This document shows, piece by piece, positions 39,480 through 63,252 of a stretch of 64,000 nt of DNA (its first letter is position 1; the number at the start of each line of letters is the position of its first letter). Source of the DNA: Lysobacter changpingensis (GTDB lineage: Bacteria; Pseudomonadota; Gammaproteobacteria; Xanthomonadales; Xanthomonadaceae); NCBI RefSeq assembly GCF_017308985.1, contig NZ_JADWPE010000006.1, positions 310,001 through 374,000 of the forward strand. Reading direction: 5' to 3'. A model generated the notes under the pieces. It searched no databases. It was not told the DNA's origin and worked only from the letters and a program-made list of their open reading frames with translations. The translations under genes and the position numbers were made by a program.

Positions 39480-40532
39480 ATGACTCGTGACAGCGTGGCG
39501 TCCCTCCGGACGCGCGATTCCATCAACTCCGGTAGCTCCAGCACGGCGCCTGCGGATGTGGCGACGGCGGTGCTCACCGAAGCGGAATACGAGCTGTTCG
39601 CCGAACTGGGCCGTCCGCGTCGCGTCGAAGCAGGCCAGCTGCTGTTCCGTCGCGGCGAGCTGGGCACGACGATGTTCGTCATCGCACGCGGTGTCGTCGA
39701 CCTGGATTTCGGCGACGACCTCGTCGGCAAGCGCCTGGGCCCCAGCGAATTCTTCGGCGAACTCGGCCTGCTCATCGGCGACCACGTCCGCAGCGCGGAT
39801 GCGGTGGCTGCCAGCGACGGCCTGCTGATCGAACTGCGCCACGAGGAATTCCAGCGCCTGGTCGATCGCGATCCGGGCCTGGTGTCGTATTTCCTGCGCC
39901 GCGCCATCCTGCGCGTCGTGCTGAACGAGCAGAGCCTGATTCGCCGCCTGCGTCGTCGCAACGAAGAACTGCAGTCGGCGCTCGACAGCCTGTACGCGGC
40001 GACGCACCAGCTCAACCAGACTGAAGAGCTCGTCCGCACGGACGAACTCACCCGCCTGTACAACCGCCGCGGACTCACCCTGCACCTGCAGGAATGCCGC
40101 GACCTGGGCACGCCGCGCAGCATGGGGCTGCTGCTGGTCGACTGCGACCGCTTCAAGCAGGTCAACGACGACCACGGCCACCTCATCGGCGACCGCGTGC
40201 TGCAGGGCGTGGCGAACATCCTGCGTTCGGTCGCGGGGCCGGACGATTTCGCCTGCCGCCTCGGCGGCGACGAATTCTGCCTGTTGGTGCAGACCGACCA
40301 GCGCGGCGAAGTGATGCGCTTCGCCGACTTCATCGTGACCACCGCGCAGGGCCTGATGCAGATGTCGCACGGCACGCCGCTGATGTGTCCTTTGAGCGTC
40401 GGCGCCTGCCTGATCGACCCCGCGCGCGACTGGAACGACGCATACGCACACGCCGACGCGGCGCTGTACCAGGCCAAGCGCCTGGGCGGCAACCGCGTGC
40501 ATTGGCACGACATGGAACTGACTTCGGCCTGA
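39480..40532 (+). CDS. Diguanylate cyclase with N-terminal cyclic-nucleotide-binding domain
   Basis: 350 residues. Residues 30-140 are a cNMP-binding (CRP-like) beta-roll (LFRRGELGTTMFVIARGVVDL, SEFFGELGLLIGD). A helical linker (about 145-185) leads to a GGDEF domain (185-345), with the active motif GGDEF at 262-266 and DELTRLYNRRGL at its start. The inhibitory I-site position reads GPDD, not RxxD, so product inhibition may be lost. It makes c-di-GMP, perhaps under control of cAMP/cGMP. It is 22 bp upstream of the cyclase-like gene, so the two are probably cotranscribed. Confidence 0.92.
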   Translation: MTRDSVASLRTRDSINSGSSSTAPADVATAVLTEAEYELFAELGRPRRVEAGQLLFRRGELGTTMFVIARGVVDLDFGDDLVGKRLGPSEFFGELGLLIGDHVRSADAVAASDGLLIELRHEEFQRLVDRDPGLVSYFLRRAILRVVLNEQSLIRRLRRRNEELQSALDSLYAATHQLNQTEELVRTDELTRLYNRRGLTLHLQECRDLGTPRSMGLLLVDCDRFKQVNDDHGHLIGDRVLQGVANILRSVAGPDDFACRLGGDEFCLLVQTDQRGEVMRFADFIVTTAQGLMQMSHGTPLMCPLSVGACLIDPARDWNDAYAHADAALYQAKRLGGNRVHWHDMELTSA

Positions 40533-40554: not shown

Positions 40555-43179
40555 ATGAACGAGATGACCCATCGCCCCTCGATCGAAGCGCCACAGCTGC
40601 GCACGCTGCTGCTCACCGATCTTTGCGATTCGACCACGCTGGTCGAGCGCATCGGCGACGTGCAGGCGGCCACGCTGTTCCGCGACCACGATCGACTGGT
40701 GCTGGATCTGCAACAGCGCTGGCGCGGCCGGTTGATCGACCGTTCCGACGGTCTGCTGCTGCTGTTCGAACGCCCCATCGACGGCCTGGGCTTCGCGCTC
40801 GACTACGTGCGCGAACTGCGCGAGATGGGCGACGCGCGCCGGCTCGAGCTGCGCGCGCGCGCTGGCCTGCACGTCGGCGAAGTGCTCACCTGGCGCAACA
40901 GCGACGAAGCGGTGCAGGTCGGCGCCAAGCCGCTCGAAGTCGAAGGCCTCGCCAAGCCCATGGCCGCGCGCCTGATGGCGATGGCGCGCCCGGGGCAGAT
41001 CCTGCTGTCGGCCGTCGCCGAACCGCTGGCGCATCGCGCCGCGCGCGAACTGGGCGAACGCGGCCAGCACCTGTTGTGGAAATCGCACGGCCGCTGGCGC
41101 TTCAAGGGCGTGCCCGACGGGCAGCAGATCTACGAAGTCGGCGAGCCCGGCATCGCGCCGCTGCGCATGCCGCCGAACACGCCCAAGGCCTGGCGCGATC
41201 TTCCGTTGTGGCGTCGCCCCGCCGCGCTCGCCGCGGAGGCCGCGATCATCGCCGGCATCGGCGTGGGTGTCTGGTTCGCTACGCGCCCCGCGCCGGCGAT
41301 CGCCTTTAACCAGCGCGACTGGGTGGTGGTTGCGGACCTTCGCAACCTCACCGGCCAGAGCGTGCTCGACGACTCGCTCGAACAGGCATTCCGCATCAGC
41401 CTGGAGCAGTCGCGCTACGTCAACGTGCTGAGCGACTTGAAGGCGCGCGACACGCTCACGCGCATGCAGCTAAAGCCCGACACCATCCTCGACCGCGCCA
41501 TCGCGTCAGAAATTGCCCTGCGTGATGGAGCGCGTGCGGTGATCCTACCGACGGTCGCCGAAGTCGGTGGCAAGGTGCGAGTCAGCGCCGAGATTATCGA
41601 CCCGCATACGCAGACGACGATTTATGCCAAGTCGGCGGATGGCATCGGTGCCGACTCGACCCTCACCTCGATAGATGCGGTGACGGCAACGCTTCGGGAA
41701 ACTCTGGGTGAAGAGCTGCCGTCAATTCAAAACGACTCGATACCACTTCCGAAGGTGACCACTAGCAGCCTGGATGCCCTCAGGGCCTATGCCCTAGGTC
41801 AACAGGCCATGGCGCGTGCCAACTATGCCGAAGCGCAGCAGTTCTATTCGCGGGCTACGTCATTGGATCCGAAGTTCGCCTTGGCTTGGCTGGGGCAGGT
41901 TCGTGTCACGTTCGGAACCGAGAATCTGCAGACGGCGCTTGAACCGCTGACGAAGGCGGAGCAGCTGAAGGATCACCTCTCCCCTAGGGAGCGCATGTAC
42001 TTGGACGCCTGGACCGCGAGGATCAAGGATCCGGCGCAGGCAGTGAAGAAGTGGGAGGAGCTGGCGAAGTTCTATCCAGACTACTTCCCGGCACAGGGCA
42101 ACCTTGCGATCGCGCATTATCGGGACGCCCGTTACGCACAGGCGATACGATTCGCCAAGGCGGCCACGTCCGACCAGTACGAATATGCGCCGATGAACCT
42201 GGACATCCTCGGCAGGCTGCAACTTGCGACCGCTGACTACGAGAATGCGCGCGCATCGTTCCAGCGTGCCGTGGCTCGGGGGCGTAACGGCAGTTTCCGT
42301 CGCCTCGCGGCGCTGGAAGCCACCCAGCGAAAGTATCCGAGCGCCGAGCAGATGCTCGCGAAAGTGCCCGGCGACGACCTCCACGGCTGGATCGAGAAGA
42401 CCACGATCGCGCTTGACCAGGCACGCTGGAAGCAGGCCCAGGAGGCCTCCAGGACCGCGCTGGCGATGATCGATGATCCGGATAGCTTCGATGCGCGCGC
42501 GTTCCTGCTCCCCGCCGCGACTTCGAGTTGGCTGGCGGGCGACAAGCCCGCAGCGATGCGCTCTGCGCGCGAGGCGTCCCGGCGCGCGGTCGCGGCGCTT
42601 GAATCGACGACGAATGTTTATGCAGACGAGGACGTCGCCGTAGCAGTGGGAGGTGCTCTGCTCGCGCTTCGCATGGGTGAACCATCAGTCGCCGGAGACG
42701 TGGACCGCGCCCTGGTGACGCGGCCCGATCTGATGAAGGTGAGGAGCCTGGCGGAACTCCGCGATGTAATGCGCGCGGAGGTGCTGCGACTCCAGAAACG
42801 TCCAGGCGAGGCCGTGGCGCTCCTGACGCCATATCTGGACGATGGTGAGCGCTACCAGACGCGCGTCGTGCTTATGCGCGCCCAATTCGATGCGGGGAAC
42901 CTGCCTCAGGCGCTCGACCACGCCCGATGGCTGCAGCGCAAGCGGGGTGTGGCATTCATGGAGCTTCGTTGTGGTCAGTGCCTGCAGAGTCTGAACATTG
43001 CAGACAGCAACATCGCAGCCTTGGTCGAAGCCCAGATCCTAAAGAAGCAGGGGAACACCAAGGAGTTCGAACAGAAAATGCAGAGCTTCGATCAGTTCTG
43101 GCCAACCGAAGCTCTACCGGATTACTTGCGAACCCAGCGCACGTCCGCAGTTGCGACGTCCAGGTTGGGGACTGTTTGA
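40555..43179 (+). CDS. Class III nucleotidyl-cyclase-like TPR membrane protein (peptide modification system cyclase)
   Basis: 874 residues. Residues 12-160 form a class III cyclase homology domain: metal aspartates D22 (TDLCDST) and D65 (RSDG), and arginine R139 in MAARL. The transition-state Asn position holds Pro135, so activity is doubtful. A membrane segment at about 222-242 precedes a beta/alpha domain (about 250-400) and a long TPR-like region to the C-terminus. This layout and the SagB-like and leader-like neighbours fit the NCBI family called putative peptide modification system cyclase. Its 3' end overlaps the convergent peptide gene by 58 bp. From about 41,500 codon use is less GC-rich. 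Confidence 0.85.
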   Translation: MNEMTHRPSIEAPQLRTLLLTDLCDSTTLVERIGDVQAATLFRDHDRLVLDLQQRWRGRLIDRSDGLLLLFERPIDGLGFALDYVRELREMGDARRLELRARAGLHVGEVLTWRNSDEAVQVGAKPLEVEGLAKPMAARLMAMARPGQILLSAVAEPLAHRAARELGERGQHLLWKSHGRWRFKGVPDGQQIYEVGEPGIAPLRMPPNTPKAWRDLPLWRRPAALAAEAAIIAGIGVGVWFATRPAPAIAFNQRDWVVVADLRNLTGQSVLDDSLEQAFRISLEQSRYVNVLSDLKARDTLTRMQLKPDTILDRAIASEIALRDGARAVILPTVAEVGGKVRVSAEIIDPHTQTTIYAKSADGIGADSTLTSIDAVTATLRETLGEELPSIQNDSIPLPKVTTSSLDALRAYALGQQAMARANYAEAQQFYSRATSLDPKFALAWLGQVRVTFGTENLQTALEPLTKAEQLKDHLSPRERMYLDAWTARIKDPAQAVKKWEELAKFYPDYFPAQGNLAIAHYRDARYAQAIRFAKAATSDQYEYAPMNLDILGRLQLATADYENARASFQRAVARGRNGSFRRLAALEATQRKYPSAEQMLAKVPGDDLHGWIEKTTIALDQARWKQAQEASRTALAMIDDPDSFDARAFLLPAATSSWLAGDKPAAMRSAREASRRAVAALESTTNVYADEDVAVAVGGALLALRMGEPSVAGDVDRALVTRPDLMKVRSLAELRDVMRAEVLRLQKRPGEAVALLTPYLDDGERYQTRVVLMRAQFDAGNLPQALDHARWLQRKRGVAFMELRCGQCLQSLNIADSNIAALVEAQILKKQGNTKEFEQKMQSFDQFWPTEALPDYLRTQRTSAVATSRLGTV

Positions 43180-43469
43180 TCGAGGCCACGCATCAGCATG
43201 GCGCGAATCTCGTCCCGCGCCGCCTTGATGACGTCCTTTGACACCAGATTCTTGACCTTGCACTCGCGGAACGGCTCCAGTTCAGTGGCCGGAGCCACTT
43301 CACCACAAGCCGTCATTTGTCCCGGCGACGGCGATTCATAGCCGAGGGTGCGCAGCGCGGCGAGATGATCGCGCTGGAAGCGCTCGCGAAACAGGTCGTC
43401 GGTGCTCAAAAGGTCCAGGAGCCGGTCGGCCAAAGCCGGGTCCAGCGGTGCGGTCAGCGGCTTGTTCAT
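43122..43469 (-). CDS. RiPP precursor-like peptide 1 (NHLP-related leader family)
   Basis: 115 residues from ATG 43469 (GGGGAAG upstream; a TTG two codons earlier is possible). An N-terminal helical leader-like part (ADRLLDLLSTDDLFRERF) is followed by CG at 55 and C at 70 (FRECKVKNL). The C-terminal helix ends in RGLDQTVPNLD and a basic tail. It aligns without gaps to the two peptides further right around Cys70 and the D-Q-T-V-P-x-L-D end. Proposed substrate of the flanking modification enzymes. Its 3' end overlaps the cyclase gene on the other strand. It is more diverged than the other two and the only one with a second cysteine. Confidence 0.8.
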   Translation of the reverse strand: MNKPLTAPLDPALADRLLDLLSTDDLFRERFQRDHLAALRTLGYESPSPGQMTACGEVAPATELEPFRECKVKNLVSKDVIKAARDEIRAMLMRGLDQTVPNLDVATADVRWVRK

Positions 43470-43610
43470 CCCCAATCTTCCCCGTCAAAGAGCCCGTTGC
43501 GGGCCAATCCGGCAAAATCTAACCGGTTTGTGCTTGCTGTCACAACCGCGTGTCGGATGCTTGGTTGGCCCCCGCCGCTTTCGCGGCGGGGGCGAGAGCA
43601 GAGAGACCGA

Positions 43611-43964
43611 CTACTGCTTCAGGCGGCGGCTGCTTTCGAGACCGCTGTCCAGCTGCGGCACAGTCTGGCCGAGGCCCGCCAGCAACATGGAGAGGATTTC
43701 CTCTTGAGCAGCGCGGATGACCTCCTTGGGCGCCAGTTGCGTGATGCCCATCTTGCAATCCCACCAGAACCAATCGATCGTGTCCTGATCAAACTGCCAG
43801 GTCTCCAGCGCCATGCGCGCATCGCGCATGAAGACGTCGCGGAACTCGTCGTTGGTCGCGAGCAGATCCACCAGCTTGATCGCCGCCGGCCGGTTCATCG
43901 GCACGGTGCGGGTCTTGCCGGACGTTTCCGTCCGCACTTCCTGTTCGGTCGATATCGCTTGCAT
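43611..43964 (-). CDS. RiPP precursor-like peptide 2
   Basis: 117 residues. Start ATG 43964 with AAAGGA just upstream. The first 17 residues are identical to those of peptide 3. Nitrile-hydratase-leader-like helix AIKLVDLLATNDEFRDVFMRD, then WFWWDCKMG with Cys70, then AAQEEILSMLLAGL and QTVPQLD. It has a single cysteine. The gene is separated by 135 bp from peptide 1 and 105 bp from peptide 3, all minus strand, and the upstream leader DNA is duplicated (see 44070). Confidence 0.85.
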   Translation of the reverse strand: MQAISTEQEVRTETSGKTRTVPMNRPAAIKLVDLLATNDEFRDVFMRDARMALETWQFDQDTIDWFWWDCKMGITQLAPKEVIRAAQEEILSMLLAGLGQTVPQLDSGLESSRRLKQ

Positions 43965-44069
43965 GTCCTTTCTTCCGTTGAGTGACTTGCGTTGATGGGC
44001 AGCATTTCCCGGCGCGCGGTGGCGCTGGAGCGGCACCGCGCTCACAGCGATCTCCGGCGCGCCATGACG

Positions 44070-44423
44070 TTACTGATGCAGGCGGTGTTGACTTGAGTAG
44101 TCCGCATCAAGCTTCGGGGCAACCTGCGACAGGCCTGCCGTCAGCATCGAAAGGATTTCATTCCGCGCAGCGCCGATCACTTCTTTCGACGCCAGTTGCC
44201 GGATGCCCATCCTGCAATCCCACCAGAAGAAGTCCTGGGTCTGCTGGTCGAACTGCCAGGTTTCCAGCGCCGTGCGCGTATCGCGCATGAAGATTTCGCG
44301 GAACTCATCGCTGGTCGCGAGCAGGTCCACCAGCTTGATGGCAGCCGCGTGGGTCATCGGCACAGTGCGGGGCTTGCCGGACGTCTCCGTCCGTACTTCC
44401 TGTTCGGTCGATATCGCTTGCAT
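44070..44423 (-). CDS. RiPP precursor-like peptide 3
   Basis: 117 residues, a recent-looking duplicate of peptide 2: same length, same first 17 residues, same FWWDCRMG with Cys70 and a related C-terminus. Differences gather in the middle and the last dozen residues. The start ATG 44423 and the upstream GTCACTCAACGGAAG-type leader are nearly the same as for peptide 2. It is divergent from the dehydrogenase gene (132 bp between starts), which should contain promoters for both directions. Confidence 0.85.
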   Translation of the reverse strand: MQAISTEQEVRTETSGKPRTVPMTHAAAIKLVDLLATSDEFREIFMRDTRTALETWQFDQQTQDFFWWDCRMGIRQLASKEVIGAARNEILSMLTAGLSQVAPKLDADYSSQHRLHQ

Positions 44424-44555
44424 GTCCTTTCCTTCCGTTGAGTGACTGCTTGGCATTGGCCGGCGACCCGGGCGATCCCGCGCCGGCACGCCAACCTACT
44501 TCCCAACTGGCCCGGCCGCAAGCAAAGTAGCCGCTTCGCCAACAGGGACCCGGGC

Positions 44556-45725
44556 ATGCGTATCCGTCGTTGTGGAGTGGTGTATTTCGAGCCGCGCGAA
44601 CAGGTGGAATTCGACCTTTCCCTCCTATTGACCGGCGGCGACGGTCTCAATCGCGAGCGGCGCTGGCTCGCGCTCGCGCCGCATCTGGGCCAGGAAGTCG
44701 AGGTCGATGGCGACGAGCGCGAACTGCTCGGTGTGCTTAGCCCCGGTCAATGGATCGACGCGGATTCGATAGAGGCCGACGCGGGTACGCTCGCGCGCCT
44801 GCTGCGCGAAGGGCTGGTGGTCAGCGACGCGCCCGAACACGCCGACATGCGCGAACGCGACGAATCGCTGCGTCGCACGTACTGGCATCCGCTCGCGGCA
44901 ACGCTGCACGCGTTCACGCGATGGAGCGGCGTGGATACCGTGCAGAACCAGAAGGACAGCGGCACCGAAACCGCCGTCGCGATGCGGCAGGTGCTCGGTG
45001 CGCCGCCGGTGGAAGCCGCGCGCCGCGTCGACGACGATGCGCGCGTGCGGCTTCCGCGCATCGCGCCGACCTCGTTCGACGACCTGCTTGCCCGTCGCGC
45101 GACCTGCCGGAATTTCGATGCGTCGCGTACGTTGCCGTTCGACACGTTCGCGCAGGTGTTGCAGCGCGTGTTCGCCGCGCAGGCGGAAGTGCGCGTCACC
45201 GACGACACGGTGTTCCTGAAGAAGAACGTGCCCTCCGGCGGCGGCCTGCACCCGATGGAGTGCTACCTGATCGTGCAGCACGTCGACGGCGTCGCGCCCG
45301 GCCTGTATCACTACCAGTCGCAGGAGCACGCACTCGAACCGTTGCCGGCGCCGGCCAAGCCGCTGCGCGAGTTCGTGATGGACATGGTCGCGCAACAGCA
45401 CTGGTTCGCCGATGCGCACGTCGTCGTCCTGCTGTCGCCGCGCTTCGATCGGACCTTCTGGAAATACCGGAACCACGCGAAGGGCTATCGCGTGATCGCG
45501 CTGGAAGGGGGCCATCTGTCGCAGACGCTCTACCTGGCCGCGACCGACGCCGGGCTGGGCGCGTTCATCACCGGCGCGATCAATGAGGTCGAGCTGGAGC
45601 AAGCCTTCGGCCTGGACCCGATCCACCAGGGCGCGCTGGCGATCTGCGGCTTTGGCTGGCGCGGGCCGGTGATGGAGACGGCGGAGCTCGATCCGGCCGA
45701 AAGGGTGTGGCAGCGGGCGGAGTGA
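44556..45725 (+). CDS. SagB-like FMN-dependent dehydrogenase (putative peptide maturation dehydrogenase)
   Basis: 389 residues. The N-terminal 170 residues are a family-specific domain (start MRIRRCGVVYFEPREQVEF). The C-terminal nitroreductase/SagB domain has RRATCRNFD, the PSGGGLHPMECYLIVQ block for FMN and a late EGGHLSQTLYLAATDAGLGAF. SagB-type enzymes oxidise azolines to azoles, but no YcaO cyclodehydratase is visible here, so the reaction may be different. It lies next to three leader-like peptides and the cyclase-like protein, as in the NCBI peptide maturation dehydrogenase family. ATG 44556 is supported by the start of the conserved region. Confidence 0.87.
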   Translation: MRIRRCGVVYFEPREQVEFDLSLLLTGGDGLNRERRWLALAPHLGQEVEVDGDERELLGVLSPGQWIDADSIEADAGTLARLLREGLVVSDAPEHADMRERDESLRRTYWHPLAATLHAFTRWSGVDTVQNQKDSGTETAVAMRQVLGAPPVEAARRVDDDARVRLPRIAPTSFDDLLARRATCRNFDASRTLPFDTFAQVLQRVFAAQAEVRVTDDTVFLKKNVPSGGGLHPMECYLIVQHVDGVAPGLYHYQSQEHALEPLPAPAKPLREFVMDMVAQQHWFADAHVVVLLSPRFDRTFWKYRNHAKGYRVIALEGGHLSQTLYLAATDAGLGAFITGAINEVELEQAFGLDPIHQGALAICGFGWRGPVMETAELDPAERVWQRAE

Positions 45726-45816
45726 GCAGGGCGGGCGGCGCCGGCGGGCCCGTAGTGCCAGGCGAGGGGCCAGCAGGGAGGGTTGGGGAGAGGGAAGTGG
45801 CGCGCGAAGGCACGCG

Positions 45817-45850
45817 CTCCCCGGGTGCGCTGCGCTTACCCGGGCTACAA
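45817..45850. repeat. Interspersed repeat, family A, partial copy (inverted)
   Basis: CTCCCCGGGTGCGCTGCGCT followed by TACCCGGGCTACAA, the family arm in reverse orientation. No middle segment is present. Confidence 0.7.
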
Positions 45851-45949
45851 AACGGGGGGTGGCTGAACGAGGTTATTTGCCGCCCAAGGCAGTCGACATT
45901 GCCGAATCTGGCGCGATATCGTTGGAGACTCGTCACAAGGACTGTCGAA

Positions 45950-46420
45950 ATGCGCGCCCTCCGCTTCGTTTCCGCCGTTGTCCTGGGCCTGGCCTTGGCC
46001 GCCCCGGCGTTCGCGTCCGTCGACAGCCGCGTGCTGATGCTCGACGACATCCGCACCCAGCAGTACGAGATCCGCGACGGCGTGGAAGCGCGCACGGGTC
46101 GCTACAAGGACCTGTCCGCCTCGCAGCGCAGCGAACTGTTGAACAAGCAGGCGCGCATGCTGCAGACGATCGACGGCAAGCGCTCCACCGAGGAGCTCAA
46201 CGACCAGCAGAAGACGGAAGTCTTCAACACGCTGGAATGGATCGAGGCCGTGGTGAACAACCAGGACGACGAGCGCATGATCTGCGAGCGCCGCCCGGTG
46301 CTGGGCAGCACGCGCAAGGAGCGCATCTGCAAGACCGCCGCGCAATGGCGCGAGGAGCGCGAAGCCGCGCGCAACATGATGGATTCGCGCGGCGCCTGCA
46401 TGGATTGCAAGAGCGATTGA
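45950..46420 (+). CDS. Exported protein of unknown function, paralogue 1
   Basis: 156 residues. Signal peptide (residues 1-22, AAPAFASV), then a charged helical protein (DDIRTQQYEIRDGVEARTGRY; SELLNKQARMLQTIDGKRST). The C-terminal third holds four cysteines (MICERR, RICKTA, GACMDC). The same overall plan is found in the next gene, so the two arose by duplication. Not assigned to a family. AAGGA precedes ATG 45950. Confidence 0.75.
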   Translation: MRALRFVSAVVLGLALAAPAFASVDSRVLMLDDIRTQQYEIRDGVEARTGRYKDLSASQRSELLNKQARMLQTIDGKRSTEELNDQQKTEVFNTLEWIEAVVNNQDDERMICERRPVLGSTRKERICKTAAQWREEREAARNMMDSRGACMDCKSD

Positions 46421-46474
46421 TCGCGGCATCCCAGGCCGCTGCATGGCGGCATTCCCCGATTGGAGCGCAGTGGC

Positions 46475-46951
46475 ATGAAGACGCATTCGTTGATGGCGCT
46501 GCTGCTCGCCCTGGCGATGGTCCTGCCGTTCGACGCATTCGCGCAGGATGAGGCCGCGCCGCCCGAGAAACTCGACCGCATCCTCGCGCAGCAGAATGAA
46601 CTCAAGCGCGACCTCGACGCCGGCAAGACCGAGGGCATGACGACCCGGCAGGTCAATGCCATCCGCAAGTCGCAGGCGGAAGTGTTCGCGGTGACGGAGG
46701 GCAAAACCTCGCTCGACGAGCTTTCGATGGACGACAAGGTGCGACTCGAGAACGCGCTGGAGCGCATCAACGCGGAAGTGAAGAACACCCGCGCCGGTCG
46801 CGACGACAAGCAGGTGTGCTGGCGCGAGCGCATGTCCGGCACCAACACGAAGGTCACGCGCTGCGGCACGGAAGCCGAGATGCGCGAAGCGCGTGAAGGT
46901 GCACGCGATTTCCTCGAACGACCGAAGGTTTGCGGCGACCGCTGCGGTTGA
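46475..46951 (+). CDS. Exported protein of unknown function, paralogue 2
   Basis: 158 residues. Signal peptide (1-24, PFDAFAQDE), then the same helical layout (ILAQQNELKRDL; SMDDKVRLENALERINAEV) and a four-Cys C-terminus (QVCWRER, TRCGTEA, KVCGDRCG). It is 54 bp downstream of paralogue 1 and probably in the same operon. ATG 46475 begins the signal peptide; a TTG five codons earlier is possible. No function recognised. Confidence 0.75.
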   Translation: MKTHSLMALLLALAMVLPFDAFAQDEAAPPEKLDRILAQQNELKRDLDAGKTEGMTTRQVNAIRKSQAEVFAVTEGKTSLDELSMDDKVRLENALERINAEVKNTRAGRDDKQVCWRERMSGTNTKVTRCGTEAEMREAREGARDFLERPKVCGDRCG

Positions 46952-47700: not shown

Positions 47701-47742
47701 TAGGTTATGGTTTGTCAGTGTCACCCTGTTTGGGAGAATTCC

Positions 47743-48912
47743 ATGCGCTTGCTTTGGTCTTCACCCGCTGGATCGAAGGCTGAGCTCCTATTGGCCGCGG
47801 AACGAATACTCCGCGTCACCGTGCCTGCGTGTCCGGATTCATACCTCCTGGACACAAAGTTCCCGTTCCTGATCTACGAGGACGGAAGCCTCCAGCGCGA
47901 AAGCTTCGCCTACCTCTTAGAAATTCATCGACGAAATGGAGCCAGCGCTCCCTCGACATTGCGGACCTACGCGGAATCGCTTCTTAGCTGGTTTCTATAC
48001 CTTGAGCGGAGTGGGCAGTCTTGGTACGCACCGGCGAGGGACGCGCTGCCGAAATACCGAACGCAAATACTCGAAGGCGCACTGAACAGAGGTCGAAGGA
48101 GGAATGCCCGAACCACTGCAAACCTGCGCTTACAAGTCGTCTTGAGCTTCTACGGATACTTAGGGGCGATCGAAGCCGCACCATTCATACAAACAGTCCT
48201 CGGCTGCAATCCAGCAGCTGCAACGCCAAAGAATCTTATCGACGCAAGACGGTTCCAAGCTCGGCGTCTTCAGCTCAGAGCGCGATCACGACGTCCCCGC
48301 GCCCTCACGCCTACGGAGTCGGAAGCGATCCTCACGGCGCTAAACGGGGTGCACAAGCTGGTCTTCTTTTGGTCGCTCGCAACGGGTCTCCGACGATCAA
48401 GCCTCATTAGCTTAAAAAAGGAGGACGTCCCAGCTCCCCAACACCCAATCGAATACGTCTCGGTGAATGTAAAGGGAGGTGGCATTATCGATGTTCCGGT
48501 GACCAAGTCGCTTGCCGCCCGAACTCTGGATTACATAGACACAGATCGGAGAGTGGCCCAGGCGAGGGCGCTGAAAGCCGGCTTGGCAGCGCAGCCCTGC
48601 CTCTTCCTCGCTCGAGACGGGCGACCGCTTACCGCATCAGCCTACTATCAAGCATTCAAGAGAGCGTGCCAGCGAGTAGGAATCAAAGCGCATCCGCATA
48701 TGACGCGGCACACGTTTGCAACCAGAGCACATGCCGGGCTAACGGCATGCCTTGAGCCCGGGTCGAACATAAACGTCACTAAGGTGATCCAGCATTGGCT
48801 GGGCCATCGGAACGTGGCGAGCACAGAGCTCTATCTAGAGCAGATCGTGGCGCCATCATCAGACGTGCTCGGTGTTCTCAGTAGTCTCCAAGGGGGCGGC
48901 GATGATGAGTAG
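47743..48912 (+). CDS. Tyrosine recombinase 1 of the trio
   Basis: 389 residues. An N-terminal SAM-like core-binding domain (about 60-150; TLRTYAESLLSWFLYLERSG) is followed by a catalytic domain with all residues in place: Arg in TGLRRSSLISL, His-x-x-Arg in HMTRHTF, the second His in QHWLGHRNVAS and Tyr in TELYLEQ. It should be an active site-specific integrase/transposase. Start ATG 47743 follows GGGAGA and lies only 43 bp inside the element. The stop overlaps the next start by 11 bp. Confidence 0.92.
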   Translation: MRLLWSSPAGSKAELLLAAERILRVTVPACPDSYLLDTKFPFLIYEDGSLQRESFAYLLEIHRRNGASAPSTLRTYAESLLSWFLYLERSGQSWYAPARDALPKYRTQILEGALNRGRRRNARTTANLRLQVVLSFYGYLGAIEAAPFIQTVLGCNPAAATPKNLIDARRFQARRLQLRARSRRPRALTPTESEAILTALNGVHKLVFFWSLATGLRRSSLISLKKEDVPAPQHPIEYVSVNVKGGGIIDVPVTKSLAARTLDYIDTDRRVAQARALKAGLAAQPCLFLARDGRPLTASAYYQAFKRACQRVGIKAHPHMTRHTFATRAHAGLTACLEPGSNINVTKVIQHWLGHRNVASTELYLEQIVAPSSDVLGVLSSLQGGGDDE

Positions 48913-50521
48913 AGGCCGCTCACTCCTCCTGGAGTTCAGCTCCGACGCCACCCCTGGGCTCGTCGACACATACGACTTCGCAATGCTCGGTGTGCCAAAG
49001 GAGTGCGCAGAGCACTTAGCCGAAGCCTTCAGAGGCGTTACTGAGCACTACAAGATCGTCAGTCGGCGACAGGCGTGGAGATCCGTGAGGAAGTTCTGCG
49101 CCTTCTTGGCGGGCCTCGAGAACCCTTCGTCTGCGATTCATGCCGCCGATATCTTGGAGCGATTCGGAAGGTACCTTGCGTCAGGCCTCATGGAGAAGAC
49201 GGCAGGCTCACACTTCAACCTCATATCAGCACTATACAAATGGCTCGGGGCATATGGGGCGTCGCCTGTCAGGTGGCTAAATGTCCGCCTCGTGAGACAG
49301 AGATTCAGGCGCGAGGAGCTTCGTGTTCGCTCAAATGAGCTCAATGAATCAACGCTTCGGAAAATTGCTGCAGCGTGTAAAGGCGAGATCGTAATTAGCA
49401 GGCGCCAAATTCTCCTCGGTCGCGACATCAAGAGTGCACAAGCGGAGCTAGGTCATACCCAAGCTGCGCTCCTTGCCGAGATGATCTCCCTAGGTCGACA
49501 GGGCATCCACACGAAGGAGGAGCTGAGGAGGCGCGGTGTAAAACTTCGGGGAAAGAGAATCCGAGCGCTCCAACGCTACAAGGAGCCCACCACTAGGACG
49601 CTACTTCCATACCTCCTGCTCATCCTCATCGGAACCGCCGCAAATCCATGGTCCATCATGAACCTGGAGTCCGGATGCTTGGAGCAACATCCTACAGATC
49701 CGCTCATGGCTCGGTTCTACTGGACAAAAGGGCGTGCATCCCGCGAGCAGTTCTCTGACGTGCTGAGGGCGGGCACGTACGCGTTGCCGACTCTACTTAG
49801 CGACCTTGAACGCGGCACGATGGCTCTACGGTGCGTCGCTATCGAGCGATACGCGCGCCACGTGTTCATTGCTAGGGTCAACAAGTCGTCACGAACTCCA
49901 TCGATCCAGGGTTGGCATAACGCTCTAACCGAGTTCAGGGCGGCGCACCGTTTGCCATACTTCACGTTCACGGACATTCGCCGAGGAATTGCAGCTGCCA
50001 TCACTTCAAGGGGCGAAGGTATTGAGGCCGTTCGAAGGACATTGCAGCACAACTCAGTGCGTACAACAGAAAGGTACCTCGATAGTCCAGGAGTGCTCGG
50101 GAAGGTTAAAGCTCGAACGCTCGATTATCAGGGCCAGATAGTGGCGGCCGCCGAAAGAGCGCACAGAGCCGCGCGATACGAGACCGCCTACGGTTTCATC
50201 TGTGCGGACCCAGTTAAGGGCACCGCGATCGGCTCAAGAAAGGGTGAGCCGTGCTTGGAGTTCGCCCAATGTGCCACCTGCGAGAACGCCATATTTGTAA
50301 TCGATGATGCAACTTACGTCGCGCGAATTATCGTGGCAAGGGACGCGATTGAAGCGTTTCGCGAGCGGTGCGCACGGGGGGCTGCTCCCATGGAGAGGTT
50401 CAACTACGCGTTCGCGCCAACGTTGGCAGTAGCTGATGCAATTCTGAAGAAGGTGAAAGCTCCGGTTCTGAGCCGCGCGAGGAAGATCGCGCGATCGCTT
50501 CCAGCTTTCCCTGTCGAATAG
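48902..50521 (+). CDS. Tyrosine recombinase-like protein 2 of the trio (incomplete catalytic set)
   Basis: 539 residues from ATG 48902 (ATG 48905 equally possible). Tyrosine recombinase fold, but the box I arginine position reads N in IGTAANPWSIMNL, and the box II histidine is replaced in FTFTDIRRGIA. The box II Arg, the last His (LQHNSVR) and the Tyr (TTERYLD) remain. A C-terminal CLEFAQCATCENA cluster may bind zinc. It likely acts as a partner subunit, as in Tn554-type systems where two recombinases cooperate. It overlaps gene 1 by 11 bp and is 8 bp from gene 3. Confidence 0.85.
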   Translation: MMSRGRSLLLEFSSDATPGLVDTYDFAMLGVPKECAEHLAEAFRGVTEHYKIVSRRQAWRSVRKFCAFLAGLENPSSAIHAADILERFGRYLASGLMEKTAGSHFNLISALYKWLGAYGASPVRWLNVRLVRQRFRREELRVRSNELNESTLRKIAAACKGEIVISRRQILLGRDIKSAQAELGHTQAALLAEMISLGRQGIHTKEELRRRGVKLRGKRIRALQRYKEPTTRTLLPYLLLILIGTAANPWSIMNLESGCLEQHPTDPLMARFYWTKGRASREQFSDVLRAGTYALPTLLSDLERGTMALRCVAIERYARHVFIARVNKSSRTPSIQGWHNALTEFRAAHRLPYFTFTDIRRGIAAAITSRGEGIEAVRRTLQHNSVRTTERYLDSPGVLGKVKARTLDYQGQIVAAAERAHRAARYETAYGFICADPVKGTAIGSRKGEPCLEFAQCATCENAIFVIDDATYVARIIVARDAIEAFRERCARGAAPMERFNYAFAPTLAVADAILKKVKAPVLSRARKIARSLPAFPVE

Positions 50522-58359: not shown

Positions 58360-61300
58360 ATGTCAAGGATTAGCGCAAGGACTCGTCAGCAGCTTTCGAA
58401 CTCGGCAAGTAGCATCCTGTGCGCCCTCTTTCGTTGGCCGCGGTTGGCAGCGCATCTTCTCGCTGCAACAGGCCTATCTCTGGTGCCCGCTACTGCATCC
58501 GCGGAGTACATCGAGCAGAAGAATTTCTGTTATGAGTCGCAGTGTTTTGAATCGCTATCTCAAGCCGAGCGTGCAATGCGAACGTCGCTCGCAAGTCAGA
58601 ACGGGGCTCGGTTGAGGCGAATCAAATCCCAAGGTTCGCCAGACGGAAGTGTCGTCTCCTTTAGCTATGCCATGCCTAATGTCGCTCCAAGCTCATATGA
58701 TCCGCCCGCATACAATATCGGAGGATGGAGCGCGGCAAGGGTGGGCTGTACGGCATCTGCTTGGGATTCAAATTCTTGTGCCGACGAGCTGGAAGGGGCT
58801 CAGAAGTTCTTTCAGATGGTGGTTGATGGAAACGCAGGGTGGTGCGATACCTATGATTTCAGGATCATAGGTCAGCACGCGACGCCAGTGTTTGAGGTTT
58901 ATCGCACAAACAACGACGCTATCGGATCCATGGCATTTGGGTTGACCGGAGAGAATGCCCGATCCGGAGAGTACAAAGTCTATTGCTCCGGGTGGGGCAG
59001 TTTGCCGCCAAGGACCGATACTTTTGGGATCTTCAAAGGGCAAAGATTCTATTGTCCCGTTGGCTACGCCGTGATCGCCGGAAGAGAGAGGAAGTACAAG
59101 GACATCGAACCAGTCGCTAGCCCATCGAGAACCATTGACTGGCCGTATGTCTGCGGTAGCGGAGTTCGAGCTACTATCATCGGTATTACAAAGCAGGTGA
59201 AGTCCTGCTCGGCCAATCAGAATCCCTGTCATCCGAGTACCGGAGATAAATCCAGAGCGGAGCATGATTTTGACGCTTTAGGTCTCTCTTTCATCCGCTA
59301 CTACCATTCGTTGCAACAGTTTGACGACCCTTCGCTGGCCCCAGGTTGGAGCCACACATTCAGTGAACGAATCGATGTGCCATCGTTGTACGCTGTCAGT
59401 GCGGAGGGGCACTACGAATCTATCGTCTCAATAGGGAGCGGGCGATATCGTCTGAAAGGAAGCGATGGGCGATACCTGGTTACTGTCAACGCAGGTGGCG
59501 TAGCTCATCGAATGCATGAGCCCGGCGGCATCATCAAAGAGTTCGACTCAAACGGGAGGCTGATTCGGGTTGTCAACACGGCAAGGCCAGGCGTGGACGT
59601 CCGGCTTGAGTACAATGGCGCGTTCCTTTCCAAGGCTATAGGCGCAGATGGAAGAATCCTGGCCTTCCGCTACGAGAATGCGCGGCTCGTGCAAATTGTT
59701 CTTCCCGACGGAGCTGCTGTCGGTTATGGACGTGACAGCGACGAGAACCTTGTTTCGGTACAGATCGCTGGTCGTACAAAGCTTTACAGTTACCACGAGC
59801 CCGGGCTGGCTGAAGAAGTGTTCCGCCACCACCTGACCGGAATCACGTACGAAGACGGTCAAAGGCATGCTTCCTTTGGCTACGACGGATTCGGGAGAGT
59901 CACATCAAGTCGCCTTCATGTAGGGGTAGGGTTTGCCTCGGAGACATCGCTCGCCTACGACGCCGCGAATAAAGTAACTGTCACTTCACCGGCAGGGGTA
60001 CGTACGTACACCATGGGTGCAGGTCCATTCCGTCCTGTGGTAGGCATTGCGAGTGAGGTTGGCTCGATTACGCGCGTTTACAACAGCGATGGAACTCTGC
60101 AGCAGCAGACTGATCGGACGGGCCGCATCACGAATCTCGGGTACGTCGAGGGATACGAGACCTCAAGGCACGAAGCCGCCGGAACCGCTCAGGAGCGAGT
60201 TGTCTCAATTGAACGCAACACAAGCAAGAAGATAACCAAACGTACGGTGCAGGGCCGTATTGCGGGTGTGTTGGTTGAGCAGCTCATGGAGACGTCTAGT
60301 TACGACGGCGCGGGCCGAGTAGTCGCAAGGTGTCTTATTGATCCCGCCGTCCAGGGCGCGATCCACTACTCCTGCGGATCTAGCGCTAGCCCGCCAATTG
60401 GCGTGAGGCAATCTCGGACGACCTATTGTGAGCAATCTGGCGTCGATTCCGGAGCGTGTCCGGTTCTTGGTCTCGTGCTCTCCGTTGACGGAGCGCGTAA
60501 CGGCGCTGACGACGTCACAGCTTACGAGTACTTCGCCGCTGACCATGCCAATTGTGCGGCCTCGCTGATGGCATGCGATTGGCGCAAAGGCGACCTCTGG
60601 AAAGTTACCAATTCCCTCGGCCAGACTACTGAAACCCTGCGCTACGACGGAGCAGGCCGCGCGCTGTCGGTCAAAGATCCTAATGGCGTTATCACAGACT
60701 TCGAGTATCACCCACGTGGATGGCTCGCCGCACGTAAGGTGCGCGGTGCGGACAACGGCACCGAGTCGGATGACCAGATCATGCGCATCGACTACTACCC
60801 TACGGGGCTGGTCAGCAGCACGACTCTGCCAGACGGCAGCTTCACTTCCTACGTGTACGACGCGGCGCATCGGTTGACAAACGTCGTGGATGCCGACGGC
60901 AACGCGATCCACTACACGCTGGACAATGCCGGGAACCGGATCAAGGAAGAGGTGAAGGACAGTGATGGCAGCCTTAAGCGCACGCTTTCGCGGGTGTACA
61001 ACCAGCTGGGCCAATTGCAGATGTCCAAGGATGCCGCCAACCAACCAACAGGCTTCACCTATGACCCGAATGGCAACTTGGACACCGCCTCCGATGCGCT
61101 GGGCCGCGTGTCGGACAGGGACTACGATCCGCTGAACCGGCTGAGCCGGACCCTTCAAGACGTCGCCGGCATCGCCGCCGAGACCAGGTTCAAGTACGAC
61201 GCATTGGACAACCTGACCGAGATTGTCGACCCGAAGGGCCTGAGCACCAAGTACCAGTACAACGCCTTTGGCGACTTGATCCGTCTGGAAAGCCCCGACA

Positions 61301-63252
61301 CGGGTGTGACCACCTATGGCTACGACGCGGCTGGCAACCGTATCAGCGCGCTGGACGCCCGCGGCGAGCAGAGCACCTACAGCTACGATGCGCTCAACCG
61401 GCTCACCGGGATCGCCTACAGCGATGCCGCGCTGAACGTGAGCTACACCTACGATGCAGTGCAGGCGGTATGCGACCCCAACGAGACGTTCGCGATCGGT
61501 CGCCTGACACGGATGGACGACGGCAGCGGCTCCACCCAGTACTGCTACGACCGATTCGGCAATCTGACCCGCAAGGTGCAGGTGACCAACGGCCAGTCCT
61601 TCACGCTGCGATATGCCTACACCAAGGCAGGCCAAGTGGCGGCCATCCAGTATCCGGACGGGATGCTGGTGGACTATGTCCGCGACGGTCTGGGCCGCGC
61701 CACGGAGGTGGGCGTCACGCTGAGCGGCGGAATCCGCCAGGTCCTGCTGACCGGTGCCACCTATCACCCGTTCGGCCCAGTCGCCGGTTGGACGTTCGGT
61801 AACGGACGCACCATGTCCCGTACGCTGGACCTGGACTACAGGCCCAAGACGATCCTGAGCACGGGCACCGGGGCTGGCGGGTTGAACCTTGGCTTCGGCT
61901 GGGACGCGGTTGGCAACCTGGCCAGCCTGCACACCAGCGGACTGGAGCAGCCGCCGCGGATCACCTTCGGCTATGACGCCTTGGGCCGTCTGACGACGTT
62001 CCAGGACGGACCTACCGGAGCGGTCATCGAGCAGTACGCCTACGACGCGACGGGCAACCGCACCAGCTTCACGAACGCCGGCGGCACGCAGCTGTACGAC
62101 TATCCAACCGACAGCCATCGGCTGAGCGCTGTGAACGACGTGGCCCGCAGCTACGACGCGATAGGCAACACCACGTCAATTGGCGGTACGCAGCGTGAAT
62201 TCGCGTACAACGCGGCCGGACGGATGAGTCTAGCGGAGCGCGACAACGCGGTGGTGATGCAATACGGTTACAACGCGAAGGGCGAGCAGGTGCGCAGGTA
62301 CCTGAGCACGAGCAATACCTACGCGGTTCACGACGAGTCAGGGCTAAGGATGGGCGAGTACCACAGTGCCTCCGCGCCTACCCAGCAGATCGTCTGGCTT
62401 GACAGCCTTCCGGTGGGTGTCATTGCCAATGGCCGGATGAACTACGTGGAAGCTGACCATCTGGGCACTCCGCGTACGGTAATCGACGCACAGCTAGATG
62501 TGGCAGTTTGGGAGTTAGCTTTGTCGAGCGAAGCGTTCGGAAATAGTAGTCCCGCCGAAGACCCCGATTTCGATGGAGGCGCATTTCAATTGAATATGCG
62601 CTTCCCGGGGCAGATTTTCGATCCAGCGAGCGGCCTCAACTATAACTACTTCAGAGATTACGATGCTGCTTCTGGTAGGTATATTGAGAGTGATCCGATC
62701 GGTTTGGGGGCATCAATCTCGACCTACTCATATGTCGGCGCTAGCCCCCTCCAGTGGCGAGATCCCAGTGGCCTCGTGCGTTGGGATGGCAGGGCTTTGC
62801 CGTCGAGTGCTGGGGGCCTCGTCGCAGGCGGTTTGTTCGTGTTTGATTTAACTTCTCAATGTGTGAAGGGCAAAAGGGCGCGAGTGCTGGTGCGTGCTTG
62901 GGGCGCTGGCGTCGGTTGGGGGATTAAGTACCTGCCTCCAATCAACATGACAGCGGATAACGTGACGCTTGAAGATCACTTGCCAGAGATATTACCCGCT
63001 AACTTCAACGGCCTCTTCCATACGTTGGGTGTGAGCTTGAATGCACTTAATTGGGGCGCCGGATGTACTGGATATCAGTTAGGCAGTCACTGGACCCCAG
63101 CAGTAACTCGGGGCGTTGTCCCGTGCACCACAGGCGGTGCGGGTCTGGATCTGGGCGCAAATTATCTGGTAGGACAATCGACTCTGGTTCGAGTCAAATG
63201 GAGCCAGTGCGATGAATGTGAGCCAATTGACACGCCATTCGACAGCCTTTGA
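58360..63252 (+). CDS. Sec-exported RHS-repeat protein with variable C-terminal tip
   Basis: 1630 residues. A signal peptide ends near residue 48 (VPATASAEY). The N-terminal domain is Cys-containing, then YD/RHS repeats (many YDxxGN / YDALNRL units, about 500-1400). The RHS core motif (NYFRDYDAASGRYIESDPIG) ends in RDPSGL at about 1468-1472. The last 158 residues after DPSGL are the variable tip, hydrophobic and Gly-rich with four or five cysteines; it matches no toxin that I know. No PAAR or VgrG-like part, so not an obvious T6SS effector. Repeats at about 60,550-62,480 are GC-rich; both ends are AT-richer. AAGGAAG precedes ATG 58360. Confidence 0.9.
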   Translation: MSRISARTRQQLSNSASSILCALFRWPRLAAHLLAATGLSLVPATASAEYIEQKNFCYESQCFESLSQAERAMRTSLASQNGARLRRIKSQGSPDGSVVSFSYAMPNVAPSSYDPPAYNIGGWSAARVGCTASAWDSNSCADELEGAQKFFQMVVDGNAGWCDTYDFRIIGQHATPVFEVYRTNNDAIGSMAFGLTGENARSGEYKVYCSGWGSLPPRTDTFGIFKGQRFYCPVGYAVIAGRERKYKDIEPVASPSRTIDWPYVCGSGVRATIIGITKQVKSCSANQNPCHPSTGDKSRAEHDFDALGLSFIRYYHSLQQFDDPSLAPGWSHTFSERIDVPSLYAVSAEGHYESIVSIGSGRYRLKGSDGRYLVTVNAGGVAHRMHEPGGIIKEFDSNGRLIRVVNTARPGVDVRLEYNGAFLSKAIGADGRILAFRYENARLVQIVLPDGAAVGYGRDSDENLVSVQIAGRTKLYSYHEPGLAEEVFRHHLTGITYEDGQRHASFGYDGFGRVTSSRLHVGVGFASETSLAYDAANKVTVTSPAGVRTYTMGAGPFRPVVGIASEVGSITRVYNSDGTLQQQTDRTGRITNLGYVEGYETSRHEAAGTAQERVVSIERNTSKKITKRTVQGRIAGVLVEQLMETSSYDGAGRVVARCLIDPAVQGAIHYSCGSSASPPIGVRQSRTTYCEQSGVDSGACPVLGLVLSVDGARNGADDVTAYEYFAADHANCAASLMACDWRKGDLWKVTNSLGQTTETLRYDGAGRALSVKDPNGVITDFEYHPRGWLAARKVRGADNGTESDDQIMRIDYYPTGLVSSTTLPDGSFTSYVYDAAHRLTNVVDADGNAIHYTLDNAGNRIKEEVKDSDGSLKRTLSRVYNQLGQLQMSKDAANQPTGFTYDPNGNLDTASDALGRVSDRDYDPLNRLSRTLQDVAGIAAETRFKYDALDNLTEIVDPKGLSTKYQYNAFGDLIRLESPDTGVTTYGYDAAGNRISALDARGEQSTYSYDALNRLTGIAYSDAALNVSYTYDAVQAVCDPNETFAIGRLTRMDDGSGSTQYCYDRFGNLTRKVQVTNGQSFTLRYAYTKAGQVAAIQYPDGMLVDYVRDGLGRATEVGVTLSGGIRQVLLTGATYHPFGPVAGWTFGNGRTMSRTLDLDYRPKTILSTGTGAGGLNLGFGWDAVGNLASLHTSGLEQPPRITFGYDALGRLTTFQDGPTGAVIEQYAYDATGNRTSFTNAGGTQLYDYPTDSHRLSAVNDVARSYDAIGNTTSIGGTQREFAYNAAGRMSLAERDNAVVMQYGYNAKGEQVRRYLSTSNTYAVHDESGLRMGEYHSASAPTQQIVWLDSLPVGVIANGRMNYVEADHLGTPRTVIDAQLDVAVWELALSSEAFGNSSPAEDPDFDGGAFQLNMRFPGQIFDPASGLNYNYFRDYDAASGRYIESDPIGLGASISTYSYVGASPLQWRDPSGLVRWDGRALPSSAGGLVAGGLFVFDLTSQCVKGKRARVLVRAWGAGVGWGIKYLPPINMTADNVTLEDHLPEILPANFNGLFHTLGVSLNALNWGAGCTGYQLGSHWTPAVTRGVVPCTTGGAGLDLGANYLVGQSTLVRVKWSQCDECEPIDTPFDSL

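Follow-up and report, generated by a model that had tools for sequence, protein, structure and literature searches.

The locus analysed here lies in a 64,000-nt stretch of the Lysobacter changpingensis genome (contig NZ_JADWPE010000006.1, positions 310,001 to 374,000; hereafter, the window), and combines a protein annotated as a cyclase, three small peptides and a SagB-like flavin mononucleotide (FMN) dehydrogenase. The question that it raises is whether these genes serve only to modify a peptide, as a preliminary description of the window had proposed, or whether they also signal with it. We consider it probable that the locus is a system made of a peptide signal and a receptor guanylate cyclase, feeding a pathway from cyclic GMP (cGMP) to cyclic di-GMP (c-di-GMP). 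The new result that underlies this reading is that the ectodomain of the cyclase, the peptide and SagB are replaced jointly between close relatives, while the cytosolic cyclase domain and an adjoining GGDEF protein are kept.

The cyclase gene (40555–43179, forward strand) codes for a protein of 874 amino acids (aa) that scored 1155 bits to family TIGR04510 (NCBIfam cut-off 400). The three genes on the reverse strand code for NHLP-related precursors of family TIGR04509 (cut-off 34 bits): peptide 1 (43122–43469; 115 aa, 76 bits), whose gene overlaps at its 3′ end with the cyclase gene, peptide 2 (43611–43964; 117 aa, 59.5 bits) and peptide 3 (44070–44423; 117 aa, 65.9 bits), the last two with an identity of 0.74. 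These are the only TIGR04509 matches in the whole 4.06 Mb genome. The SagB-like dehydrogenase (44556–45725, forward strand, 389 aa) belongs to family TIGR04511, with 570 bits for the open reading frame (ORF) 44442–45725 and a cut-off of 240. By inspection of the sequence, the likely starts of the peptide genes are at 43469, 43964 and 44423, and that of SagB is likely the ATG at 44556, the GTG-started ORF from 44442 being less favoured. The preliminary description had named the three families, and hidden Markov model searches returned exactly those numbers, all well over cut-off. The extent that it gave, 40555 to 45725, proved too short, as it excludes a gene that belongs to the locus and lies 22 bp upstream of the cyclase gene on the common strand (39480–40532, 350 aa), coding for a protein with cyclic nucleotide monophosphate (cNMP)-binding and GGDEF domains (Pfam PF00027 and PF00990).

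The linkage of these four genes was also observed in other genomes. We surveyed 398 genomes of the order, which are related to each other and for which no p-value is given. The cut-offs were exceeded in 120 genomes for TIGR04511 and in 121 each for TIGR04510 and TIGR04509, with all three families in 118. A close relative of the GGDEF protein, defined by an E value of 1e-45 or better, occurred in 125 genomes, comprising 116 of the 118 with the full trio versus 9 of the other 280; the latter include G261, G277 and G384, with one member of the trio missing or below cut-off, and G278, with the cyclase only. Gene order was compared in 121 loci, 120 fetched plus that of the window, chosen for carrying the families. 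The GGDEF gene was upstream of the cyclase gene, on the same strand and within 1.5 kb, in 109 loci; in 10 of the 12 other genomes, it is present at a different site or on a different contig. The exact order and strands of cyclase (+), peptide (−) and SagB (+) were found in 85 of the 121 loci, a conservation far above chance, and the peptides thus stay beside both enzymes in other genomes, as the preliminary description had expected. Most loci hold one peptide. Cyclase and peptide duplicate as a pair, with four loci containing two full sets and two loci showing the order cyclase-peptide-cyclase-peptide-SagB, with no second SagB. At the site found most often, the genes run LysR - malate synthase - isocitrate lyase - GGDEF - cyclase - peptide - SagB (of the 121 loci, 76 have LysR, 89 malate synthase and 86 isocitrate lyase), and the recurrent genes past SagB are of ordinary families, such as ComM-like Mg chelatase, P-II, and acyl-CoA and carboxylase genes. 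In a sample of the class, matches at an E value of 1e-40 were limited to 2 of 151 genomes, both from the family of the window; in a sample of the phylum, 5 of 160 genomes exceeded the cut-off, all in the order, and four more, outside the order, matched below it.

The window cyclase is composed, all on the forward strand, of a cyclase domain that is its conserved output half (residues 14–205, 40594–41169), a predicted transmembrane (TM) helix with the N side inside (residues 223–242, 41221–41280; Kyte-Doolittle) and an ectodomain with an FlgO-like and a tetratricopeptide repeat (TPR) part (41284–43176), where TPR_2 and TPR_19 scored over cut-off and FlgO below it. A hydrophobic segment with a Kyte-Doolittle value of at least 1.6 was present in 160 of 162 aligned cyclase proteins, with more positive charge on its N-terminal (cyclase) side in 157, and a second segment of at least 1.6 occurred elsewhere in six. 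Because there is a single hydrophobic segment, with the excess of positive charge on the cyclase side, the one predicted TM helix puts the cyclase domain in the cytosol and the TPR part in the periplasm. The relatives of the window cyclase in the PDB are the Ma1120 and LipJ cyclases. The sections of PMC3770947 on XC_0250, from Xanthomonas campestris, describe an 886-aa guanylate cyclase that has TPRs and, at residues 32–191, a cyclase domain, and that makes cGMP and loses its activity with changes at D41, D71, L73, A150, L157 or A161; unusual residues in its cyclase domain are reported there too. The window protein has the same layout, a class III cyclase domain plus a TPR region, and its residues D35, D65, L67, A144, L151 and A155 align to those of the XC_0250 active site at an offset of 6. 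Family-wide, D65 and A144 were found in 124/124 proteins, D35 in 121/124, A155 in 118/124, L151 in 88/124 and L67 in 71/124. Among 11 cyclases of the Xanthomonas group, D41, D71, L73, A150 and A161 occupy the exact XC_0250 numbers in 11/11, position 157 is L in four and I in seven, the Met start agrees with the XC_0250 numbering in 10 and the length is exactly 886 aa in five. On reading of the alignment, the cyclase domain has neither the canonical purine-site Lys nor the transition-state Asn; a degenerate domain is nevertheless ruled out, since the replacing residues are nearly invariant and XC_0250 is active.

The GGDEF protein has the cNMP domain structure 5h5o_A as its closest solved relative (E value 4e-45), and the Xanthomonas proteins sampled share up to 96.8% identity with this solved domain. 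As given in the corresponding parts of PMC3770947, XC_0249 is a cNMP-GGDEF protein linked to XC_0250 that binds cGMP via F73, E90, H98, N145 and E146, among others, and whose diguanylate cyclase activity is raised by cGMP. These residues correspond to F77, E94, H102, N149 and E150 in the window protein (offset 4). Among 101 relatives, the contacts are kept at F73 in 97, E90 in 97, H98 in 98 and E146 in 98, whereas N145 is kept in 66, with Ser in its place in 24, and the GG[DE]EF motif is intact in 101/101. The window protein would therefore be the counterpart of XC_0249, that is, a putative cGMP-activated diguanylate cyclase. Because the key residues match those of XC_0250 and XC_0249, the TIGR04510 "cyclase" appears to belong to the XC_0250 family of membrane guanylate cyclases, within which cGMP synthesis was shown for XC_0250 only. 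A peptide cyclase is ruled out by XC_0250 and by the nucleotide cyclases among the PDB relatives. The identification with XC_0250 and XC_0249 is drawn from residue and length matches of their relatives, rather than from the X. campestris 8004 locus.

Joint replacement was examined in 89 loci from distinct species with one copy of each gene, using pairs with a GGDEF identity of at least 0.9, so that the polymorphism is seen between species and not between strains within one species. There were 96 such close pairs: the TPR part, SagB and the peptide were all different in 64, all the same in 29 and mixed in three. Correlation coefficients were 0.98 between TPR and peptide and 0.94 between TPR and SagB, and 0.42 between the cyclase domain and TPR. 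In the 64 pairs with a TPR identity below 0.5, mean identity was 0.94 for GGDEF, 0.86 for the cyclase domain and 0.49 for the FlgO-like part, falling to 0.27 for TPR, 0.43 for SagB and 0.30 for the peptide. At the DNA level, loci L092 and L107 are 97.2% identical over 6.65 kb on one side and 98.9% over 5.4 kb on the other, and the ca. 3.6 kb between, containing the rest of the cyclase gene, the peptide and SagB, shows no DNA match over 150 bases, and SagB is not even on the same strand in the two loci. We compared five other pairs in the same way. In four of them, similarity ends within the cyclase gene at a point past the TM part; three of these retain a 65–70% stretch of 200–300 bases in SagB and in the fourth, L085/L080, 86% similarity resumes within SagB. 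L236 and L238, both from Lysobacter antibioticus, are 75–86% similar across nearly the whole stretch. Left breakpoints could be placed in 58 of the 64 pairs, as could right breakpoints. On the left, they are mostly past the TM helix (residues 223–242), with a median at window residue 290 (interquartile range 263–345, two at 0). On the right, group g6 has them 200–350 bp past SagB and group g3 within the SagB gene, and in g9 they range from within SagB to 2.1 kb past it. In one case, the cassette type of genome G151 is like that of G040 (backbone 0.60, TPR 0.58) and unlike that of its near relative G165 (backbone 0.96, TPR 0.34). Parsimony on a tree of GGDEF and the cyclase domain gave 35 changes for 31 types, with little recurrence of types, and is not used as support. 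Joint replacement of this kind is characteristic of pherotype loci, comQXP among them.

Some loci depart from this organization. Eight loci (L084, L092, L096, L110, L158, L160, L168 and L172) make up a cassette class that diverges from the others: SagB is inverted and the peptides measure 78–101 aa; seven of the eight have no Cys in the usual column and several of the peptides end hydrophobic (for example, VVFCR or VVVFTI). L079 and L098 (genomes G096 and G203) have a second TIGR04510 match 3′ of SagB, covering ca. 206–810 of the profile and with no cyclase domain, an ectodomain-only copy that is possibly a remnant of an earlier cassette. L104 (G237 C2:337500-357499) is expanded, with several matches to SagB and nine or more to the peptide, distributed over the two strands, and its GGDEF partner is elsewhere in the genome. 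In L137 (G327 C6), from the Xanthomonas group, the TIGR04511 match is interrupted by ca. 13.5 kb of other DNA. The locus is also in record JAHREJ010000008.1 (L269), titled Bacillus subtilis, probably a mislabelled or contaminated assembly.

The small proteins had been called leader-like, and their leader is indeed homologous to the NHLP leaders of ribosomally synthesized and post-translationally modified peptides (RiPPs): at an E value of 0.01, NF038399 matches 101 of 110 peptides and TIGR03793 matches 22, and the leader also matches nitrile hydratase alpha (E value 0.0013). They thus look like NHLP-clan precursors of the RiPP type, with a putative modification of the core. A Cys at position 70, described as invariant, is present in the three window peptides; it is not invariant in the family, where the corresponding alignment column contains Cys in 106 of 138 non-redundant peptides, and Cys is lacking altogether from 18. 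The C-terminal tail (median 17 aa) is the least conserved segment; it contains Cys in 42 of the 138 peptides, and is devoid of Cys, Ser and Thr in 20. As for SagB, its solved relatives are 3eo7, CyaGox, BmdC and McbC, and all 122 relatives examined keep the Lys-Tyr pair (K303/Y304), which is catalytic in azoline dehydrogenases. SagB is therefore likely to be a working FMN oxidase, and its reaction might, as a guess, be the desaturation of a side chain. No YcaO enzyme had been seen in the window, and this extends to 13 of 14 genomes with the locus, including the window's own; the same search finds YcaO in 5 of 14 control genomes. The absence of YcaO from the 13 genomes and the 20 tails without Cys, Ser and Thr rule out azole formation as the chemistry. 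CRP-like sites with up to two mismatches were found in 9 of 80 peptide-SagB intergenic regions, compared with 2.8 expected from a simple shuffle, the loci being related.

The two ends of the peptide vary with different partners. After controlling for GGDEF distance and for the other partners, the leader covaries with SagB (0.40) more than with TPR (0.09), and the tail covaries with TPR (0.23) more than with SagB (0.09). Since the 3′ ends of the cyclase gene and the peptide gene overlap in 48 of the 89 loci, which could create a false link, the test was repeated without the TPR residues past 790: the tail-TPR value was still 0.23, peaking at residues 401–550 (0.26). Small partner proteins exist for some nitroreductase-family oxidases, and the covariation of leader and SagB would fit equally well a small protein that is a subunit or regulator of the oxidase, and not its substrate, with SagB making a small molecule sensed by the ectodomain. 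This alternative also agrees with the Cys-free peptides and the tails lacking Cys, Ser and Thr, which leave no such residue common to all. We consider it unlikely, however, because the leader is of the NHLP RiPP clan, the poorly conserved tail tracks TPR more than SagB, and two loci have a second cyclase and peptide but no second SagB.

In the signal and receptor system that we favour, we infer that the peptide is the substrate of SagB and, once exported to the periplasm, a ligand. The SagB-like FMN oxidase would bind the NHLP-type leader of each peptide and oxidise the peptide by a chemistry that does not need YcaO. Either released into the periplasm or displayed there, the C-terminal tail would serve as ligand for the TIGR04510 ectodomain (FlgO/TPR), and its binding would set the activity of the cytosolic guanylate cyclase domain. 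The resulting cGMP would bind the adjoining cNMP-GGDEF protein, leading to more c-di-GMP and influencing biofilm and related behaviour. Peptide, SagB and ectodomain would thus form an exchangeable specificity cassette (a pherotype), with the cyclase domain and GGDEF as constant output. For Xanthomonas, the pertinent parts of PMC3770947 show cGMP synthesis by XC_0250, though not its control, and the output from cGMP to c-di-GMP via XC_0249. The fullest version of this model, in which an oxidised NHLP-led peptide matured by SagB without YcaO is the pheromone of a single-pass guanylate cyclase acting through cGMP on c-di-GMP, a bacterial analogue of the receptor guanylate cyclases for peptide hormones, with many mutually exclusive pherotypes that near relatives in Xanthomonas and Stenotrophomonas exchange, has in our estimation an even chance of being correct.

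Several observations weigh against this model. Regarding linkage, genomes G091 and G371 have the full trio without the GGDEF protein, and G030, G106, G111, G233 and G256 have the GGDEF protein with none of the three families over cut-off. Regarding exchange, right breakpoints are often within SagB rather than beyond it; the pairs come mainly from three backbone groups (11, 9 and 7 genomes) with four cassette types each, and seven further groups of two genomes contain two types in two cases and one type in five. In the genus of the window, TPR is only 0.38–0.46 identical to that of the window, SagB is 0.72–0.88 identical, and the best peptide matches, in two of four relatives, are 0.71–0.76; because TPR differs this much while peptide and SagB stay similar, the ectodomain can change there without them. 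The covariation coefficients are small and the tail is short; covariation of the leader extends to the FlgO-like part (0.20) and TPR residues 551–700 (0.13), the tail shows −0.15 with the FlgO-like part, and the value for the peptide and the cyclase domain is not zero (0.23). Finally, the peptides have no hydrophobic signal sequence, and there is no peptide exporter among the 14 annotated recurrent neighbour families, five smaller recurrent ones being outside the annotation. A C39 peptidase domain occurs in 10 of 14 genomes, unlinked to the locus, and a C39 exporter is therefore ruled out as a fixed partner.

A second explanation is that the product of the locus is an antimicrobial RiPP, accompanied by a protein for immunity or self-recognition: the peptide would be toxic to relatives, the ectodomain would sense or neutralise it, and the exchange would reflect an arms race between toxin and immunity. 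Peptide, maturase and partner are swapped jointly, as in toxin-immunity pairs, and NHLP leaders are known from natural-product clusters. Nevertheless, no exporter recurs among the annotated neighbour families, although a prolyl oligopeptidase-family (S9-family peptidase) gene does, on the other strand in 21 of the 121 loci; loci mostly have one peptide, and what partners the peptide is a guanylate cyclase linked to a GGDEF protein that responds to cGMP, making this explanation improbable. Intracellular control, with the peptide acting in the cytosol on the cyclase domain or membrane-proximal parts, SagB as a redox switch and an unrelated divergence of the ectodomain, would suit the lack of a signal sequence and of a linked exporter among annotated neighbours, as well as the covariation of peptide and cyclase domain, but is very improbable because the cyclase domain stays constant while peptides swap and the covariation of the tail peaks within TPR. 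The preliminary description was thus right in what it observed, and its interpretation is partly supported: the XC_0250-type guanylate cyclase, its cGMP-responsive GGDEF partner and the comparative genetics do not agree with a locus only for peptide modification, and favour a signal with its receptor.

Other features of the window lie downstream of the locus. Two small genes adjoining SagB (45779–46951) have no match in Pfam or NCBIfam, and by inspection their translations start like those of secreted proteins. A phage-integrase-family gene (47707–48912, PF00589) is located where the G+C content drops from ca. 66% to 57% (from about 48000), and is followed by an ORF of 539 aa without Pfam match; this region (47707–50521) looks like the edge of a mobile island. 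The low-G+C part of the window also contains a gene for a 1630-aa RHS-repeat protein (58360–63252).

The pherotype systems best known are from Gram-positive bacteria, and in one of them, ComQXPA of Bacillus, the output part is constant between strains. As described in the parts of PMC4408185 that treat comQXP (see also PMC4008528), its modifier, peptide and receptor show linked polymorphism. The locus studied here likewise links a modifying enzyme, a peptide and a receptor, all polymorphic (by strain in ComQXPA), but the receptor would be a guanylate cyclase instead of a histidine kinase, the modifier is an FMN dehydrogenase instead of an isoprenyl transferase, and the precursor has an NHLP leader and is on the opposite strand. 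It shares with the azol(in)e RiPPs streptolysin S and microcin B17 the fold family of SagB/McbC and the Lys-Tyr pair, and differs from them in the lack of YcaO, seen in 13 of 14 genomes, and in the 20 tails without Cys, Ser and Thr. The animal receptors for peptide hormones that are guanylate cyclases are single-pass proteins with a sensing part outside and a guanylate cyclase inside; the membrane layout is similar here, and a peptide ligand is proposed as well, although this ligand is putative and no homology of the outside parts is claimed.

Another of the closest known systems is the XC_0250/XC_0249 pathway, with which the locus shares the protein with cyclase domain and TPRs, the active-site numbering, the linked cNMP-GGDEF protein and the cGMP contacts, as far as these are detailed in PMC3770947; the peptide, SagB and the exchange of cassettes are added here. 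The main text of that paper names neither XC_0251 nor XC_0252, its sections on XC_0250 state no regulator of cGMP synthesis, and the TPR domain is called uncharacterised both there and in the corresponding part of a 2019 review. Among the papers listed by searches of the open-licence literature, none connects the peptide or SagB with cGMP. The present analysis names candidates for the signal, for the enzyme maturing it and for the receptor part reading it in cGMP synthesis of the XC_0250 type. The "putative peptide modification system" of NCBI (TIGR04509, TIGR04510 and TIGR04511), all of whose models score well over cut-off here, omits the cNMP-GGDEF partner and contains a "cyclase" that would be a guanylate cyclase instead of a peptide cyclase; if so, a misleading database name would be corrected, the "peptide modification cyclase" being a nucleotide cyclase. 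The locus is probably better read as the input module of a pathway from cGMP to c-di-GMP, with a RiPP-like peptide as its likely ligand and an exchange of the pherotype kind; if this is true, bacteria would have a receptor guanylate cyclase gated by a peptide, Gram-negatives a pherotype system and the SagB family a new chemistry.

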